A DNA stretch of 49,925 nucleotides from an uncultured Pelagibacteraceae bacterium. GTDB lineage: Bacteria; Pseudomonadota; Alphaproteobacteria; Pelagibacterales; Pelagibacteraceae. Under the pieces are notes generated by a model, which did not search any database, was not told the DNA's origin, and worked only from the letters and a program-made list of their open reading frames with translations. The position numbers were made by a program, and so were the translations under genes. The stretch covers positions 1-49,925 of the forward strand of contig CACHWJ010000006.1 in NCBI GenBank assembly GCA_902583635.1. The letters are read 5' to 3'. Shown one piece after another: positions 6,578-40,988 of this stretch (the stretch's first letter is position 1; every line of letters begins with the position of its first letter).

Positions 6578-7363
6578 TTAGGTAATATTTTTTGGATCTG
6601 GCATCCCAACCTTGTTATATCCAGCATCTACGTAGTGAATTTCACCAGTAACACCGTTTGCAAGGTCACTTAATAGGTATAATGCTGAATTTCCAACATC
6701 ATGGATGTCAACGTTTCTTTTAAGTAAAGAATGGTCTTCATTCCATTTATAAAGGAATTTTGCATCTCCAATTGCAGACGCTGCCAGCGTTTTAATAGGT
6801 CCAGCACTTATGGCGTTTACCCTCATGCCTTTAGCACCTAAATCTCTTGCTAAATACTTAACACTAGATTCTAGTGCAGCTTTGCAAACACCCATTACAT
6901 TATAATTTGGAATAGCTTTATTTGCTTCATAACTTAATGTGATTAAGCTTCCACCCTCCTTCATTACTTTAGATGCCTCTTTTGCAACTTCCGTAAATGA
7001 AAAACAAGAAATTAACATACTTTTTAAAAAATTTTCTCTAGTTGTATTTAAATATTCTCCTGATAATTCTGACTTATCAGAAAAAGCTATTGCATGAACC
7101 ACAAAATCTATTTCGCCCCATTGTGATTTAACATCTTTAAATAACTTAGTTACATCTTCTTTTTTTTCTACGTCGCAGCTAAATGTAACTTTTGATTTTA
7201 ATTTTTCAGCTAATGGAATAACTCTTTTTTTTAATGCATCCCCTAAATAGGTAAACGCAAGTTCAGCACCAGCTTCAGAAAGTTTTTGTGAAATACCCCA
7301 AGCAATAGATCTTTCATTTGCAACACCCATTACCAATCCTTTTTTACCTTTCATCAAGCTCAT
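6578..7363 (-). CDS. fabI: Enoyl-[acyl-carrier-protein] reductase (NADH)
   Basis: Catalyses the last, NADH-dependent reduction of each fatty acid elongation cycle in the cytoplasm. At 261 aa it is a short-chain dehydrogenase of the FabI branch: N-terminal cofactor motif GVANERSIAWGI, the catalytic Tyr-x6-Lys in YNVMGVCK, and the RVNAISAGPIKTLAA segment near the substrate loop. It is last in fabA-fabB-fabI and begins 2 nt after fabB ends. The same three-gene order divergent from irr is common in Alphaproteobacteria. Confidence 0.95.
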   Translation of the reverse strand: MSLMKGKKGLVMGVANERSIAWGISQKLSEAGAELAFTYLGDALKKRVIPLAEKLKSKVTFSCDVEKKEDVTKLFKDVKSQWGEIDFVVHAIAFSDKSELSGEYLNTTRENFLKSMLISCFSFTEVAKEASKVMKEGGSLITLSYEANKAIPNYNVMGVCKAALESSVKYLARDLGAKGMRVNAISAGPIKTLAASAIGDAKFLYKWNEDHSLLKRNVDIHDVGNSALYLLSDLANGVTGEIHYVDAGYNKVGMPDPKNIT

Positions 7364-7365
7364 AA

Positions 7366-8577
7366 TTATATTTTCTCAAAAATTAAAGTAGCATTGGTTC
7401 CACCAAAACCAAAACTATTAGACATTACTGTATTTAAAATTGCTCCTGTCTCGGTTTTAGAAACTATTGGAAATTTTTTAGCCTCATCATCCATTTCATT
7501 AATATTAGCAGATCCTGCTATAAAATTATTTTTCATCATAATTAAACAATAGATCGCTTCATGAACGGATGCAGCTCCTAAAGGATGACCTGACAAAGAT
7601 TTTGTTGAACTTATTTTTGGTATTTCATTTCCAAAAGCTTCTTTTACTGCATTTAATTCTGTAATGTCTCCAACTGGCGTAGATGTTCCATGAGTATTGA
7701 TATAATCAATTTTATTTTTTGATGTTGCCATAGCCATCTTCATACATCTCACAGCACCTTCTCCCGATGGAGCCACCATATCGTATCCATCTGAAGTTGC
7801 CCCATAACCAGTTAATTCTGCGTATATTTTAGCCCCTCTTGCTTTAGCATGTTCATAGTCTTCTAGCACTAACACTCCACCACCACCAGCAATTACAAAA
7901 CCATCTCTAGTTTTATCATATGCTCTAGATGCCGTCCCTGGTGTATCATTATATTTTGAAGATAAGGCTGTCATTGCATCAAACATTGCAGTCATTGCCC
8001 AGTGTATCTCCTCACTACCACCTGCAAAAACAACATCTTGTTTTCCCATTTGAATTAATTCCATTGAGTTTCCAATACAGTGGCCACTTGTTGCACAAGC
8101 AGAACTCATTGTGTAATTAGTTCCTTTAATTTTAAATGGAACAGCAAGTGTTGCTGAAGCAGTGCTAGCCATAGTTCTTGGAACAATGAATGGTCCCATT
8201 AATTTTGGAGTTTTAGCTCTAGTTTTATCTGCTGCCAAAATGACATTTTCAATTGATGGACCACCCGAACCCATAACTATTCCTGTTTTAAAGTTACTAA
8301 CTTCACTTTCTTCTAATCCAGAATCTTCGATTGCTTCTTTCATTGCTATATAGTTGTAAGCAGAACCTGAACCCATGAATCTTATTGTTTTTCTATCAAT
8401 ATGATCTTCAAGCTTTATATTTGGCTTACCATGAACATGACTTTTTAAATTATGTTCTTTGTATTCTTCACTAAAAGATATTCCTGACTTTGTTCTTAAT
8501 AACGATTGATGTACTTCTTCTTGATTATTACCCAAGCATGAAACAACTCCTAGGCCTGTAATTACTACTCTTCTCAT
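7366..8577 (-). CDS. fabB: Beta-ketoacyl-ACP synthase I
   Basis: Condensing enzyme that elongates cis-3-decenoyl-ACP, committing carbon to unsaturated fatty acids. The 403-aa sequence carries the thiolase-fold catalytic set: the nucleophile Cys in [12 protein letters not shown], a first His in [12 protein letters not shown] and a second in [13 protein letters not shown]. The C-terminal glycine-rich [12 protein letters not shown] closes the fold. FabB rather than FabF is favoured by direct linkage to fabA, with which it overlaps as TAATG, implying translational coupling. Confidence 0.95.
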
Positions 8578-36685: not shown

Positions 36686-39600
36686 ATGAGCGAAAAATTA
36701 GTTGTCCCTGATATTGGTGAATTTGAAAATGTTGAAGTAATTGAAATACTAGTAAAATCAGGAGATCACATAAAAAAAAATGATCCTTTAATAACTATTG
36801 AAAGTGATAAATCTAGCGTTGAAATTCCTTCAACAGTGGATGGAAAAATCGAAAGCATTGGGCTTAAAGTTGGTGATAAAGTCTCAAAAGGGGATTTAAT
36901 TTTAAATTATTTATCTTCAACGATAACTACAAATACTGATACAATTCCAAAGGATACAGAAAATATAATTAAACAAGCAGAAAAAGTTATTGCCGTACAA
37001 AAAAATAAAGAGAAAGAAGAAGAAATAAAAAAAATCATTCCTGAAAAAAAACAATCAATTATTCAAGTCAGCAATGGTTCAGATATAGATCCTCTGGAAA
37101 CAAAAGATTGGTTAGAATCTTTATCAGCTGTAATTTCTAAAGATGGAAATCATAGAGCTCATTTTTTAATTAAAGAATTAATAAATAAAGCTTACCGTGA
37201 AGGTGCAAATATTCCTTATACTCAAAATACACCATACATTAATACAATACCTCCTGAAGCTGAGGTAAAATCAAATGGAGATCAAAATATTGAGAGAAGA
37301 ATAAGATCATTAATCAGATGGAATTCAGCTGCCATGGTAGTTAGGGCCAATAAAAAATTTCCTGAATTAGGCGGACATATAGGTACATTTGCGTCAGCAG
37401 CAACTCTGTATGATGTAGGAATGAACCATTTTTGGAGAGCAAAAAATAATAAATTTGGTGGAGATTTGATTTACTTCCAAGGTCATAGCGCTCCAGGAAT
37501 GTATGCAAGAGCATATTTAGAGGGAAGATTAAATGAAAAACAATTAGATAGTTTTAGACAAGAGGTTAAACCTGGAGGACTATCCTCTTATCCACACCCA
37601 TGGTTGATGCCAAAGTTTTGGCAATTTCCAACAGTCTCTATGGGCCTTGGTCCTATGCTTGCAATTTATCAAGCTAGGTACATGAAATATTTAATCAATA
37701 GAGGATTAATAAAAGATGAAGGAAGGAAAGTATGGGCTTTCTTAGGTGATGGGGAGATGGACGAACCAGAGTCAATGGGAGCAATTGGATTAGCTGCTAG
37801 AGAGAATTTAGATAATTTAATTTTTGTTATTAACTGTAATCTTCAAAGACTGGATGGACCTGTTAGAGGTAATGGAAAAATAATTCAAGAACTTGAGGGG
37901 AGTTTTAGAGGGTCTGGTTGGAACGTAATTAAAGTAATATGGGGTTCCTATTGGGACTCTTTACTGGCTAACGATAAAGAAGGCCATTTAGTAAAGCTTA
38001 TGAATGAGACAGTTGATGGAGAATACCAAGCTGCTAAAGCAAGAGATGGTGCTTATGTAAGAGAAAAATTCTTTGGAAAATATCCTCAAACTTTAGAAAT
38101 GGTTTCAAGTTTATCAGATAAAGATATCTGGAGATTAAACAGAGGCGGCCATGATCCACATAAAGTTTATGCAGCATATGATAAAGCAACCAAACATCAA
38201 GGAAGCCCGACTGTTATTATTGCTAAAACTATTAAAGGATATGGTATGGGAAAATCTGGAGAAAGTGTGAACACAACCCATCAAACAAAAAAATTAGATG
38301 TAGATGATTTAATGTATTACAGAGACCGTTTTGATGTCCCTTTGACAGACGAACAAGTTAGAAATATTGAATATTTTAGACCTGATGAAAAATCTCAAGA
38401 AATTAAATATTTAAAAGATAGAAGAATTAAACTAGGTGGATTTTTACCTGAGAGGTCGACTTTTGCAAAACCTATTAAAGCACCCTCAAAAGATATTTTT
38501 GATTTTATGAAAGTATCAACTGGTGAAAAAGAAATGTCTACAACAATGGCTCTTGTTAGAATGTTAACCAATTTAATGAGAGATAAAAATATTTCTCCGA
38601 GATTAGTTCCTATAATTCCAGATGAAGCAAGAACATTTGGTATGGAAGGATTTTTTCAAAAAATTGGAATTTATGCTCATGAAGGTCAAAAATATGAACC
38701 AGAAGACTCTGCACAATTAAGCTCATATAGAGAAGAAAAAAGTGGACAAGTTCTAGAGGAGGGAATTAATGAAGCAGGTGCTATGTCATCATGGATTGCT
38801 GCAGCAACAGCTTACACAAATCATGATATTGAAATGATTCCAATCTACACTTTTTATTCTATGTTTGGTTTTCAAAGAATTGGAGATCTTGCTTGGGCAG
38901 CTGGAGATAGTCAAGCCAGAGGTTTTTTGATTGGTGCTACTGCAGGAAGGACGACATTGGCTGGGGAAGGTCTACAACACCAGGATGGTCATAGTCATTT
39001 AATTGCTTCTACTATTCCAAATTGTGTAACTTATGATCCAACATTTCATTATGAACTAGCAGTAATTTTTAGAGAAGGTTTGAGAAGAATGCATGAGAAA
39101 AAAGAAAATGTCTTTTATTATATTACGACAATGAATGAAAATTACTCCCATCCAGAGATGCCAAAAGATAAAAATACAGAAGAGGGAATATTAAAAGGGA
39201 TGTACAAAATAAAAGATTTTGACAAACATAAAAAAACTAAAATTCAACTTCTTGGATCAGGTACAATACTACGAGAAATGATTTCGGCAGCTGAAATTTT
39301 GCAAAAAGATTATCAAATTGATAGTGAGATCTGGAGTGTTACTAGTTTTAATGAACTTAGAAAAGATGGAATGGAAGTTGAGAGATATAATTTGTTAAAT
39401 CCAGACAAAGAACCAAAAATATCTTTTGTTGAGCAATGTTTAGGTAAAACAGAGGGTCCAATTATGGCTGCTTCAGATTATATGAGAATGAATTCAGATC
39501 AAATTAGACCTTATACTAATAAAAGTTTCTACTCTCTGGGTGCTGATGGTTTTGGTAGGAGTGATACAAGAAAAAATTTAAGAAAATTCTTTGAAGTGGA

Positions 39601-39730
39601 TAAAGAGCACATAGTTGCATATGGATTAAGTATTTTAGCAAAAGAGCAACTTATAGCCTCAAAACATGCAAAAGAAGCAATGAAAAAATATAACATTGAT
39701 GGCAATAAGCCAATGCCCACTAAATTATAA
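36686..39730 (+). CDS. aceE: Pyruvate dehydrogenase E1 (AceE, homodimeric type) with N-terminal lipoyl domain
   Basis: 1014-aa fusion. Residues 1-~78 are a complete lipoyl domain (VPDIGEFENVEVIEILV, lipoyl-Lys42 in ESDKSSVE, LKVGDKVSKGDLIL). A Lys/Glu-rich linker runs to ~130, and from DIDPLETKDWL (133) the rest is a full-length homodimeric AceE. The thiamine-diphosphate motif is FLGDGEMDEPES with the following NCNLQRLDGP. AceE normally has no lipoyl domain and lipoyl groups belong to E2. The enzyme decarboxylates pyruvate and passes acetyl to lipoyl groups. aceF follows after 1 nt. Confidence 0.94.
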   Translation: MSEKLVVPDIGEFENVEVIEILVKSGDHIKKNDPLITIESDKSSVEIPSTVDGKIESIGLKVGDKVSKGDLILNYLSSTITTNTDTIPKDTENIIKQAEKVIAVQKNKEKEEEIKKIIPEKKQSIIQVSNGSDIDPLETKDWLESLSAVISKDGNHRAHFLIKELINKAYREGANIPYTQNTPYINTIPPEAEVKSNGDQNIERRIRSLIRWNSAAMVVRANKKFPELGGHIGTFASAATLYDVGMNHFWRAKNNKFGGDLIYFQGHSAPGMYARAYLEGRLNEKQLDSFRQEVKPGGLSSYPHPWLMPKFWQFPTVSMGLGPMLAIYQARYMKYLINRGLIKDEGRKVWAFLGDGEMDEPESMGAIGLAARENLDNLIFVINCNLQRLDGPVRGNGKIIQELEGSFRGSGWNVIKVIWGSYWDSLLANDKEGHLVKLMNETVDGEYQAAKARDGAYVREKFFGKYPQTLEMVSSLSDKDIWRLNRGGHDPHKVYAAYDKATKHQGSPTVIIAKTIKGYGMGKSGESVNTTHQTKKLDVDDLMYYRDRFDVPLTDEQVRNIEYFRPDEKSQEIKYLKDRRIKLGGFLPERSTFAKPIKAPSKDIFDFMKVSTGEKEMSTTMALVRMLTNLMRDKNISPRLVPIIPDEARTFGMEGFFQKIGIYAHEGQKYEPEDSAQLSSYREEKSGQVLEEGINEAGAMSSWIAAATAYTNHDIEMIPIYTFYSMFGFQRIGDLAWAAGDSQARGFLIGATAGRTTLAGEGLQHQDGHSHLIASTIPNCVTYDPTFHYELAVIFREGLRRMHEKKENVFYYITTMNENYSHPEMPKDKNTEEGILKGMYKIKDFDKHKKTKIQLLGSGTILREMISAAEILQKDYQIDSEIWSVTSFNELRKDGMEVERYNLLNPDKEPKISFVEQCLGKTEGPIMAASDYMRMNSDQIRPYTNKSFYSLGADGFGRSDTRKNLRKFFEVDKEHIVAYGLSILAKEQLIASKHAKEAMKKYNIDGNKPMPTKL
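36725..36838 (+). repeat. Lipoyl-domain coding repeat, copy 1 (in aceE)
   Basis: This part of the aceE lipoyl domain is closely repeated in aceF (around 39775-39890). A 55-nt core matches at 50 positions and the two domains share about 49 of 70 residues. This suggests duplication from one gene to the other, or conversion between copies, more than independent recruitment. Confidence 0.75.
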
Positions 39731-39731
39731 A

Positions 39732-40988
39732 ATGAAAGAGATTAATATTAAGGTTCCAAATATTGGTGACTTCACAGACGTTGAAGTAATAGAAGTTTTG
39801 GTAAATGAAGGCCAAGATATTTTAAAAAATGATCCATTAATAACAATTGAGAGTGATAAATCCAGCGTTGAAATTCCATCAAACTTTGAAGGAAAAGTTA
39901 AATCTCTTAAATTAAAAGTTGGTGATAAAGTTTCAGAGGGTGATTTAATTTTAATATTAGAAAGTTTGTCAATTGAAGGTAAAATTAAAGAAGAAACAAA
40001 AATTGAAAAACAATCTGAGCCAATTGTAGAAATAAAACAAGCAACAGAACAAATTTCTATATCCGAAAAAAAAATTAAAGATACTCGCTCAGCAAGTCCA
40101 AAAGCTAGAAAATTTGCAAGGGAGTTAGGTGTTAATATCAACCAAGTGGTAGGTAGTGAAAAAGGTGGAAGAGTAATAGAGGATGATATTAAAAAATTTG
40201 TTTCTTCAAAAACAGTAAATAATTATCAAGCAAAAGAAATCAAACCAATTAAAATTAAGAATGAGTATGAACATGCAGATTTTGGAAAAGTTGAGATTAA
40301 AGATATACCAAGAGTAAAGAAATTAGCTTCAACTTATCTTACAAATTCTTGGACAACCATTCCTCATGTAACTAATCATGATGAAGCAGATATAACTGAA
40401 ATGGAAAGTTTTAGAACTTCTTTGAAAGATGTTTATACTGGAGAAAAAATAAAAATTACTCCTTTGGCATTTATTATTAAAGCATTAGTTGCTTCTTTAA
40501 AAAAGTTTCCAAGTTTTAATTCTTCAATAGATGAGATTGAAAGCGGAAAAATGACTTTAAAAAAATACTATCATATTGGAATTGCAGTTGATACTCCAAA
40601 TGGATTGATGGTTCCAAAAATCAGAGATGCAAATAATAAAAAAATTTCATTAATCGGTAAAGAGTTAAAACAAGTCAGCGAACTTTGTAGAAATCTAAAA
40701 ATAGATAAGAAGGAATTATTTGGGGGATCAATGACGATTACAAGTCTAGGAGGAATTGGCGGATCTTTCTTTACACCAATTATAAATTATCCTGAAGTAG
40801 CTATTTTAGGTATTGGAAGGTCAGAAAAAAAACAAGTATTTTTAAATGGAAAGTTTCAAATAAGAACAATGTTACCAATTTCTCTATCTTATGATCACAG
40901 AATTATTGACGGAGCAGAAGCTGCTCGGTTTAACAACGATTTAAAAGAAAATTTAGGAAATAATTTCGCTTATAGGTTAGCCGTATAA
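39732..40988 (+). CDS. aceF: Pyruvate dehydrogenase E2, dihydrolipoyl acetyltransferase
   Basis: 418-aa E2 core. One lipoyl domain (about 3-78, lipoyl-Lys43 in ESDKSSVE), an acidic/basic linker, a peripheral-subunit-binding domain (SASPKARKFARELGVN to GGRVIEDDIKKFV, about 128-168), and the catalytic domain with the active-site His in YDHRIIDGAEAARF (about 389). The start is the ATG 1 nt after the aceE stop; the upstream extension of the frame lies in aceE and is spurious. E. coli AceF has three lipoyl domains, here one. No E3 (lpd) gene follows, so E3 must come from elsewhere. Confidence 0.94.
   Translation: MKEINIKVPNIGDFTDVEVIEVLVNEGQDILKNDPLITIESDKSSVEIPSNFEGKVKSLKLKVGDKVSEGDLILILESLSIEGKIKEETKIEKQSEPIVEIKQATEQISISEKKIKDTRSASPKARKFARELGVNINQVVGSEKGGRVIEDDIKKFVSSKTVNNYQAKEIKPIKIKNEYEHADFGKVEIKDIPRVKKLASTYLTNSWTTIPHVTNHDEADITEMESFRTSLKDVYTGEKIKITPLAFIIKALVASLKKFPSFNSSIDEIESGKMTLKKYYHIGIAVDTPNGLMVPKIRDANNKKISLIGKELKQVSELCRNLKIDKKELFGGSMTITSLGGIGGSFFTPIINYPEVAILGIGRSEKKQVFLNGKFQIRTMLPISLSYDHRIIDGAEAARFNNDLKENLGNNFAYRLAV

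Follow-up and report, generated by a model that had tools for sequence, protein, structure and literature searches.

The window analysed here, a stretch of 49,925 nucleotides from an uncultured bacterium of the Pelagibacteraceae (SAR11), encodes a pyruvate dehydrogenase (PDH) E1 enzyme in which an N-terminal lipoyl domain (LD) is joined through a linker to a complete AceE, the homodimeric type of E1. Sequence comparison with its relatives across the family makes it very probable that this E1 carries a functional swinging arm, that the LD of the adjacent E2 has been lost repeatedly, and that in the lineages concerned the only arm dedicated to PDH is the one on E1. That E2 bears the lipoyl arm is the textbook basis of intermediate channelling in 2-oxoacid dehydrogenase complexes, and an arm on E1 would, if true, be a third location for the sole PDH arm, after E2 and E3.

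Architecture and distribution of the E1 fusion

The fusion is read from an open reading frame (ORF) that is stop-free across 1014 amino acids (aa) and is the sole open frame between positions 36900 and 37110, so that the frameshift or assembly break at 36930–37080 that an earlier note on this DNA had considered is not present. The anatomy given in that note, a complete LD with Lys42 followed by a linker and a full AceE, and its coordinates are correct, save that TIGR00759 places the start of AceE at residue 132 where the note had 133; the Pelagibacterales setting that the note assumed is right as well. Specifically, the LD matches Biotin_lipoyl (Pfam PF00364) with an E-value of 1.1e-19 and 70.4 bits against a cut-off of 22.1, and the AceE part scores 1420.5 bits against a cut-off of 859.9 over positions 4–883 of the 885 in the TIGR00759 model, with Pfam PDH_E1_M at residues 613–823. 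By phmmer, residues 132–1011 align with residues 6–883 of E. coli AceE, and residues 3–74 match solved lipoyl domains, among them the three LDs of the E. coli E2; another is 1gjx, from Neisseria P64K, which is also the top Protein Data Bank (PDB) match of the E1 LD in Foldseek. An AlphaFold model of residues 1–131 (25 alignment rows) gives predicted local distance difference test (pLDDT) values of 85–92 per block of ten over residues 1–70 and places Lys42 between strands 34–39 and 44–48. The motif around this lysine, ESDKSSVE, is of the DK type, in contrast to the EAMKTMN of biotin carriers (BCCPs); a DK hairpin marks the lipoyl rather than the biotinyl type. DKSS is kept in all 126 distinct E1 LD sequences from Pelagibacteraceae.

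The linker between LD and E1 core spans 46–72 residues across the family and is rich in Lys and Glu. Within its otherwise variable sequence, a motif with the consensus IPKDTExIIKQAE occurs in 117 of 148 distinct E1s and is missing from the 8 E1s with two LDs and from 23 others. The model of the window's protein has a helix at residues 89–112 with modest confidence (pLDDT 56, 75 and 56 for blocks 81–90, 91–100 and 101–110), and one could guess that the conserved motif serves as a docking site. The N-terminal segment of the AceE part is retained, judged by alignment to residues 6–66 of E. coli AceE and to chain C of 9h1n; in E. coli this segment binds the subunit-binding domain of E2. The two-LD E1s (L175–L182, from genomes G309, G326, G298, G341, G308, G325, G340 and G098 in two genera) carry their LDs in tandem at the N-terminus of frames of 1111–1136 aa, with the lysine motif in all distinct LD copies.

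The fusion extends well beyond the window, as the earlier note had proposed to check. Relatives by named locus were the best 80 of at least 579 candidates, a choice that over-represents relatives of the window; all are titled Pelagibacteraceae, Ca. Pelagibacter or Pelagibacterales, including Ca. Pelagibacter ubique HTCC9565, whose locus L099 has a single LD on E1 and another on E2, and 79 of the 80 have the fusion, the exception (L107) being cut by a contig end. By title, the separate genomes with an open fusion frame are isolate, single-cell and metagenome-derived. An AceE-type match was found in 54 of 60 family genomes, and 50 of these alignments start at residue 8 or before and so include the LD; in the other four (G297, G300, G307, G314) the open frame starts where the match starts, so that the N-terminal part is absent from it. 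An order-wide sample gave the fusion in 61 of 64 Pelagibacteraceae genomes and an AceE match in 0 of 53 genomes of the sister family f214. Among the 155 family loci that we compared, all 153 not cut before the LD have it, and no loss of the E1 LD was seen; in L107 and L192 the contig is cut within the linker, and they were given no E1 state.

Outside the family, two candidates were scored per genome in the Alphaproteobacteria and phylum samples, and counts refer to the matches listed. An AceE-type match is present in only 5 of the 286 Alphaproteobacteria sampled, in line with the earlier remark that this class usually has PdhA/PdhB instead, and all five matches start at residue 128 or later, none reaching the LD. 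Likewise, none of 128 AceE-type matches outside the family in the phylum sample aligns to the LD: counted by hand, 127 begin no earlier than residue 105 and one at residue 53 through read-through of a stop, its E1 frame being without LD. A profile scan found no LD in 29 outside E1 frames, of which 3 are from plasmids and 26, the exceptionally long frames among them, from the Alphaproteobacteria and phylum samples; this agrees with the note's premise that homodimeric AceE normally has none. The three plasmid records opened (L300–L302, among 25 listed of 218) have AceE followed by a separate LD-bearing gene. Within the sample of the window's phylum, the fusion is thus a Pelagibacteraceae trait. 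PF00676 matches above 100 bits in 15 Pelagibacteraceae genomes were SucA only, except for one 320-aa ORF in G636.

E2 proteins without a lipoyl domain

For the comparison of E1 with E2, 150 of the 155 family loci were kept, the rest lacking the LD or having an E1 core shorter than 870 residues; removal of identical E1 core DNA left 148 distinct E1s, 143 of them with a known E2 state, and other overlap between the two genome sets is possible. Counting LDs on E1 and then on E2, 95 of these loci are one-one, 35 one-none, 6 two-one, 5 one-two and 2 two-two, with E2 unknown in 5. The adjacent E2 therefore lacks an LD in 35 of 143 distinct loci. These short E2s, of 298–312 aa, leave no room for one, because in all 35 the first ATG lies −1 to 6 bases past the E1 stop and the peripheral subunit-binding domain (PSBD) follows within about a dozen residues. 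The earlier note had proposed that the E1 LD makes up for an E2 with a single LD; we reject this, as E2s outside the family commonly have a single LD and it is that very LD which is missing here. In G337, a 99% complete genome in 5 contigs, E1 (L284, 3721–6801) is followed mid-contig by an E2 of 298 aa (6804–7700) with Pfam E3_binding at 5–40, 2-oxoacid_dh at 76–288 and no LD, among gene neighbours that by eye are the same as in the window. Pfam confirmed PSBD and catalytic domain in two LD-less E2s, and the top NCBIfam match of the two tested was TIGR01348 at 329–333 bits, against a cut-off of 552. One further candidate, L093 (6036–7296), is really an E2 with an LD, frameshifted after the PSBD; it was not counted, and its E2 state is given as unknown. 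At the other extreme, in E2s with two LDs (L183, L184, L185, L186, L175, L178, L192) the lipoylation lysine of the second LD, at about residues 106–190, is gone from all 7 distinct sequences, with IEDDENS, IEDEESA and similar in place of ESDKSS, so that the lipoyl fold is kept without an arm.

A whole-genome PF00364 search of genomes with an LD-less E2 pointed to no other arm for PDH. Nine of eleven (G337, G651, G644, G691, G289, G335, G302, G299, G324) have exactly three matches, namely the E1 LD, an ORF of 436–469 aa and an ORF of 119–151 aa. The larger ORF is the second PF00198 gene and, where located, is SucB by its position beside SucA and E3; the smaller, in the two tested, has the biotin carrier BCCP as its top NCBIfam match at 113 and 107 bits, just under the cut-off of 115. 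The remaining two genomes are incomplete, and no ORF of SucB size was found in them: in G293 (83% complete) PF00364 matches just E1 and the small ORF, and in G296 (91% complete, 8% contaminated) it matches these two as well as a fragment at a contig edge. Among the PF00364 matches of the LD-less-E2 genomes searched there is no further candidate for a PDH arm; GcvH, which belongs to a different Pfam family and a different enzyme, was not examined. The E3 gene, an ORF of 466–509 aa, was found in 15 of 15 genomes (6 with an LD-less E2), in none of which PF00364 matches inside it. LipB is over its cut-off in all 15 and LipA in 13, both being present in the window's genome.

The E1 LD is under purifying selection, with a pooled ratio of nonsynonymous to synonymous rates (dN/dS) of 0.081 in 43 one-one pairs and 0.076 in 14 one-none pairs; the E1 core gives 0.034 and 0.053, respectively. 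Trees were made of the E1 core (without LD) and of E2 (PSBD and catalytic domain) from 49 loci, out of 137 whose E2 is nearly whole, plus 3 outside rows, after thinning at 94.5% identity within each LD class, which keeps both states and could inflate the count of changes somewhat. On the E1-core tree, E2-LD presence changes 7 times, with at least 5 changes forced by starred branches, and on the E2 tree again 7 times, with at least 4 forced; grouping all LD-less E2s in one clade is rejected (p 3e-40). A 180-row E1 tree, in which the E2 state of L177 was set as unknown, has seven separate LD-less groups, with 9 changes for the number of LDs on E2 (0, 1 or 2) and 3 for the number on E1. Parsimony itself gives no direction to these changes. 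Repeated loss from E2 is the likeliest course, because no E2 identified next to an AceE in the outside loci retrieved is without an LD and because the family E2 LDs form one clade that does not derive from E1.

The latter observation comes from trees of the LDs themselves, built from 131 of 244 distinct sequences after those more than 90% identical within a group were removed; the second tree omits 11 more rows (SucB, the 7 lysine-less second LDs of E2 and 3 rows of L204 and L207). In this second tree the family E2 LDs are one clade (support 83, not starred), so that there is no sign of regain from E1, and family E1 and E2 LDs stand together apart from outside E2 LDs (support 97, starred). The most likely origin of the E1 LD is the copying of a lipoyl domain from inside the aceEF operon, ahead of the family's radiation. 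Three f214 genomes (G620, G621, G622; 98–100% complete) yielded only SucA- and SucB-type proteins and no AceE, PdhA or PDH E2, PdhB not having been searched; the sister family may have no PDH complex, and the distribution fits acquisition of aceEF in the ancestor of Pelagibacteraceae. On this distribution, the horizontal acquisition that the earlier note had suggested would be likely. As to the E2 LD, independent losses could be fewer if SAR11 lineages have recombined with one another.

In the window, E2 has one LD, a PSBD and a catalytic domain by Pfam, and its top NCBIfam match is the long AceF model TIGR01348, at 406 bits and below the cut-off of 552. The accessible part of PMC8421416 describes AceF-type E2s as having one to three N-terminal LDs, a PSBD and a catalytic domain, and the PSBD as able to bind either E1p or E3.

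Features of the aceE–aceF locus in the window
Feature	Position	Strand	Evidence
Pyruvate dehydrogenase E1, fusion of lipoyl domain, linker and AceE, 1014 aa	36686..39730	+	ORF, Pfam, NCBIfam
N-terminal LD of E1, residues 4–73	36695..36904	+	Pfam PF00364; AlphaFold, Foldseek
Lys42 codon, predicted lipoylation site (ESDKSSVE)	36809..36811	+	Sequence; DKSS conservation
E1 linker, residues 74–131, 58 aa, Lys/Glu-rich, charged	36905..37078	+	
Conserved linker motif IPKDTENIIKQAE, residues 87–99, predicted helix	36944..36982	+	Alignment, pattern count, model
Complete AceE, homodimeric-type E1, residues 132–1012	37079..39721	+	TIGR00759; E. coli AceE structures
E1 N-terminal segment, against E. coli AceE 6–49 (PDB 9h1n chain C)	37082..37210	+	Alignment
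AceF-like E2, 418 aa	39732..40988	+	Pfam, NCBIfam; ATG one base past E1 stop codon
E2 LD (Lys43), missing from 35 related loci; identity to E1 LD region 59%	39744..39959	+	Pfam PF00364
PSBD of E2, binds E1 or E3	40092..40190	+	PF02817
E2 catalytic (acetyltransferase) domain	40299..40961	+	PF00198

Some loci and genomes (L215, L216, L217, L218 and L220; G325, G649, G653, G659, G674 and G701) have a second AceE copy, 49–54% identical; five that were fetched lack an LD, and that of L217 has no E2 beside it. No second copy was found in LD-less-E2 genomes among the matches listed. Elsewhere, in G636 (L283, 2722–5694), an LD is joined to a PglD/hexapeptide acyltransferase ORF beside E1-alpha- and E1-beta-like genes and what by eye are glycan-type genes, where a lipoyl arm would perhaps feed an acyl group to sugar modification.

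Proposed function and its alternatives

In the mechanism that we propose, Lys42 of the E1 LD would be lipoylated by LipB and LipA, and the lipoyl group would be reductively acetylated at an E1 active site, either of the same chain or of its neighbour. The arm would then swing on its charged linker to the catalytic core of E2 and from there to E3. Since E1 would be docked to the PSBD of E2 through its conserved N-terminal segment, the arm would be held in the complex through a peripheral enzyme. An arm on E1 would make the arm on E2 dispensable, and its repeated loss would leave complexes with a dedicated arm on E1 only. We consider it likely, though with less assurance than we attach to the arm itself, that PDH has in this way been turned round in several SAR11 lineages, with an arm-less E2 core and the sole arm on an AceE-type E1, each E1 chain charging, carrying and handing over its own acetyl group, and with the linker helix perhaps offering a further docking site.

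The E1 LD might instead be an accessory arm, or a docking or tethering module outside catalysis, with the E2 LD doing the work wherever it is present. Such a role gains some room from the 97 of 155 loci with one LD on each enzyme, where the E1 LD need not be catalytic, and from the conserved linker motif, which could be a docking site. We nevertheless think it improbable, given a lipoylation motif that does not vary among the 126 distinct E1 LDs, against loss of the lysine from all 7 distinct second LDs of E2, and given the 35 loci in which no E2 LD is left. The LD of SucB could in principle serve PDH in the LD-less-E2 lineages, as E2p domains serve OdhA in actinobacteria, leaving the E1 LD incidental; a SucB-size, LD-bearing ORF is there in 9 of 11 such genomes, and sharing has a precedent in OdhA, which uses the LDs of AceF (accessible part of PMC10415282). 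The E1 LD is, however, kept under purifying selection in these very lineages, and the SucB LD region is only 30% identical to that of E1. LDs are moreover usually specific for their own E1, and overall we judge sharing of the SucB arm to be a distinctly poor prospect. That the LD is a separate gene, or that the LD-less E2s are mis-assembled, is scarcely credible: the frameshifted L093 did at first look LD-less, but it was excluded, the fusion frame is open in many separate genomes, the 35 LD-less E2 starts abut the E1 stop, and the 99% complete G337 shows such an E2 in the middle of a contig among the same neighbours as in the window. Chance is ruled out by family-wide conservation together with purifying selection on the E1 LD (pooled dN/dS ~0.08).

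Besides the potential of SucB to stand in, several observations weigh against a functional arm on E1 with repeated loss from E2. The AlphaFold model of full-length E1 is poor (mean pLDDT 48, with 76–84 over the first 70 residues) and uninformative on where the LD would dock. LipA lies in a pair of short frames in G326 and stays under its cut-off there; the 80% complete G302, a genome with an LD-less E2, gave no LipA match. No AceE match was obtained in 6 of the 60 family genomes and 3 of the 64 in the order-wide sample, some of them 93–97% complete. In the first LD tree, a starred branch puts the E1 LDs of the genus Pelagibacter among those of E2, and in the second the E1 LDs are not one clade (2 changes), although a single clade is not rejected (p 0.37); the two enzymes may later have exchanged LDs, and we make no claim of it.

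Taken with these points, an arm on E1 that is functional, and is the only one dedicated to PDH in the lineages with an LD-less E2, remains the most likely interpretation, because the E2 LD is missing there, no other PF00364 match in the genomes searched offers a dedicated arm, and no loss of the E1 LD was seen. As judged from sequence, the earlier note was right to see in the LD on this homodimeric-type AceE, with its intact lipoylation motif, what is most likely an acting swinging arm. Lipoyl-Lys42 on AceE is the central prediction and is directly testable by proteomics; SAR11 isolates are culturable. In the open-access literature, subscription journals and domain databases not being covered, we found no LD on a SAR11 or other homodimeric AceE and no PDH with its sole arm on E1; domain databases may well list this architecture automatically. 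The accessible part of PMC10030771 mentions aceEF and extra aceE copies in SAR11 IIIa and there has nothing on lipoyl domains.

Comparison with known systems

The SAR11 enzyme shares with the AceE/AceF-type PDH of E. coli its E1 family (TIGR00759), the order aceE–aceF and a PSBD on E2, and TIGR01348 is the nearest model for the SAR11 E2, though below cut-off. The two differ in the placement of their arms: SAR11 has one or two LDs on E1 and, in some lineages, none on E2, whereas E. coli has three, all on E2 (accessible part of PMC8421416), and its E2 structure 7b9k accordingly gives three LD matches to the E1 LD query.

Short E2s without an LD are also represented by the families PRK11857 (NF008815) and PRK14843 (NF011416), whose models of 308 and 347 positions match PSBD and catalytic part, and which are linked to mycoplasmas and streptococci. 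The two SAR11 LD-less E2s tested score far below their cut-offs, at 180–190 against 378 for PRK11857 and 144–147 against 429 for PRK14843, and score higher with TIGR01348.

Arms outside the E2 of PDH are known in other forms. The PDH of Zymomonas mobilis likewise has an LD on an E1 subunit, but this is the E1-beta of a heterotetrameric (alpha2-beta2) PdhA/PdhB enzyme and so of another E1 family; its E2, moreover, has an LD of its own. As to the subunit, the discussion in the accessible part of PMC7873978 says PdhA, and the title of the 1999 reference that it cites says E1-beta. In actinobacteria, the E2 activity of OdhA is likewise served by arms on another polypeptide, AceF (accessible part of PMC10415282), with the difference that the arm there is on another E2 and that OdhA is an E2–E1 fusion acting on 2-oxoglutarate. 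An LD on E3 is described for Alcaligenes eutrophus, Neisseria meningitidis and Mycoplasma hyopneumoniae, in the last of which the lipoylated PDH subunit is PdhD (accessible part of PMC7873978); in these systems, too, the arm is on a peripheral enzyme, which there is E3 and in SAR11 is E1.

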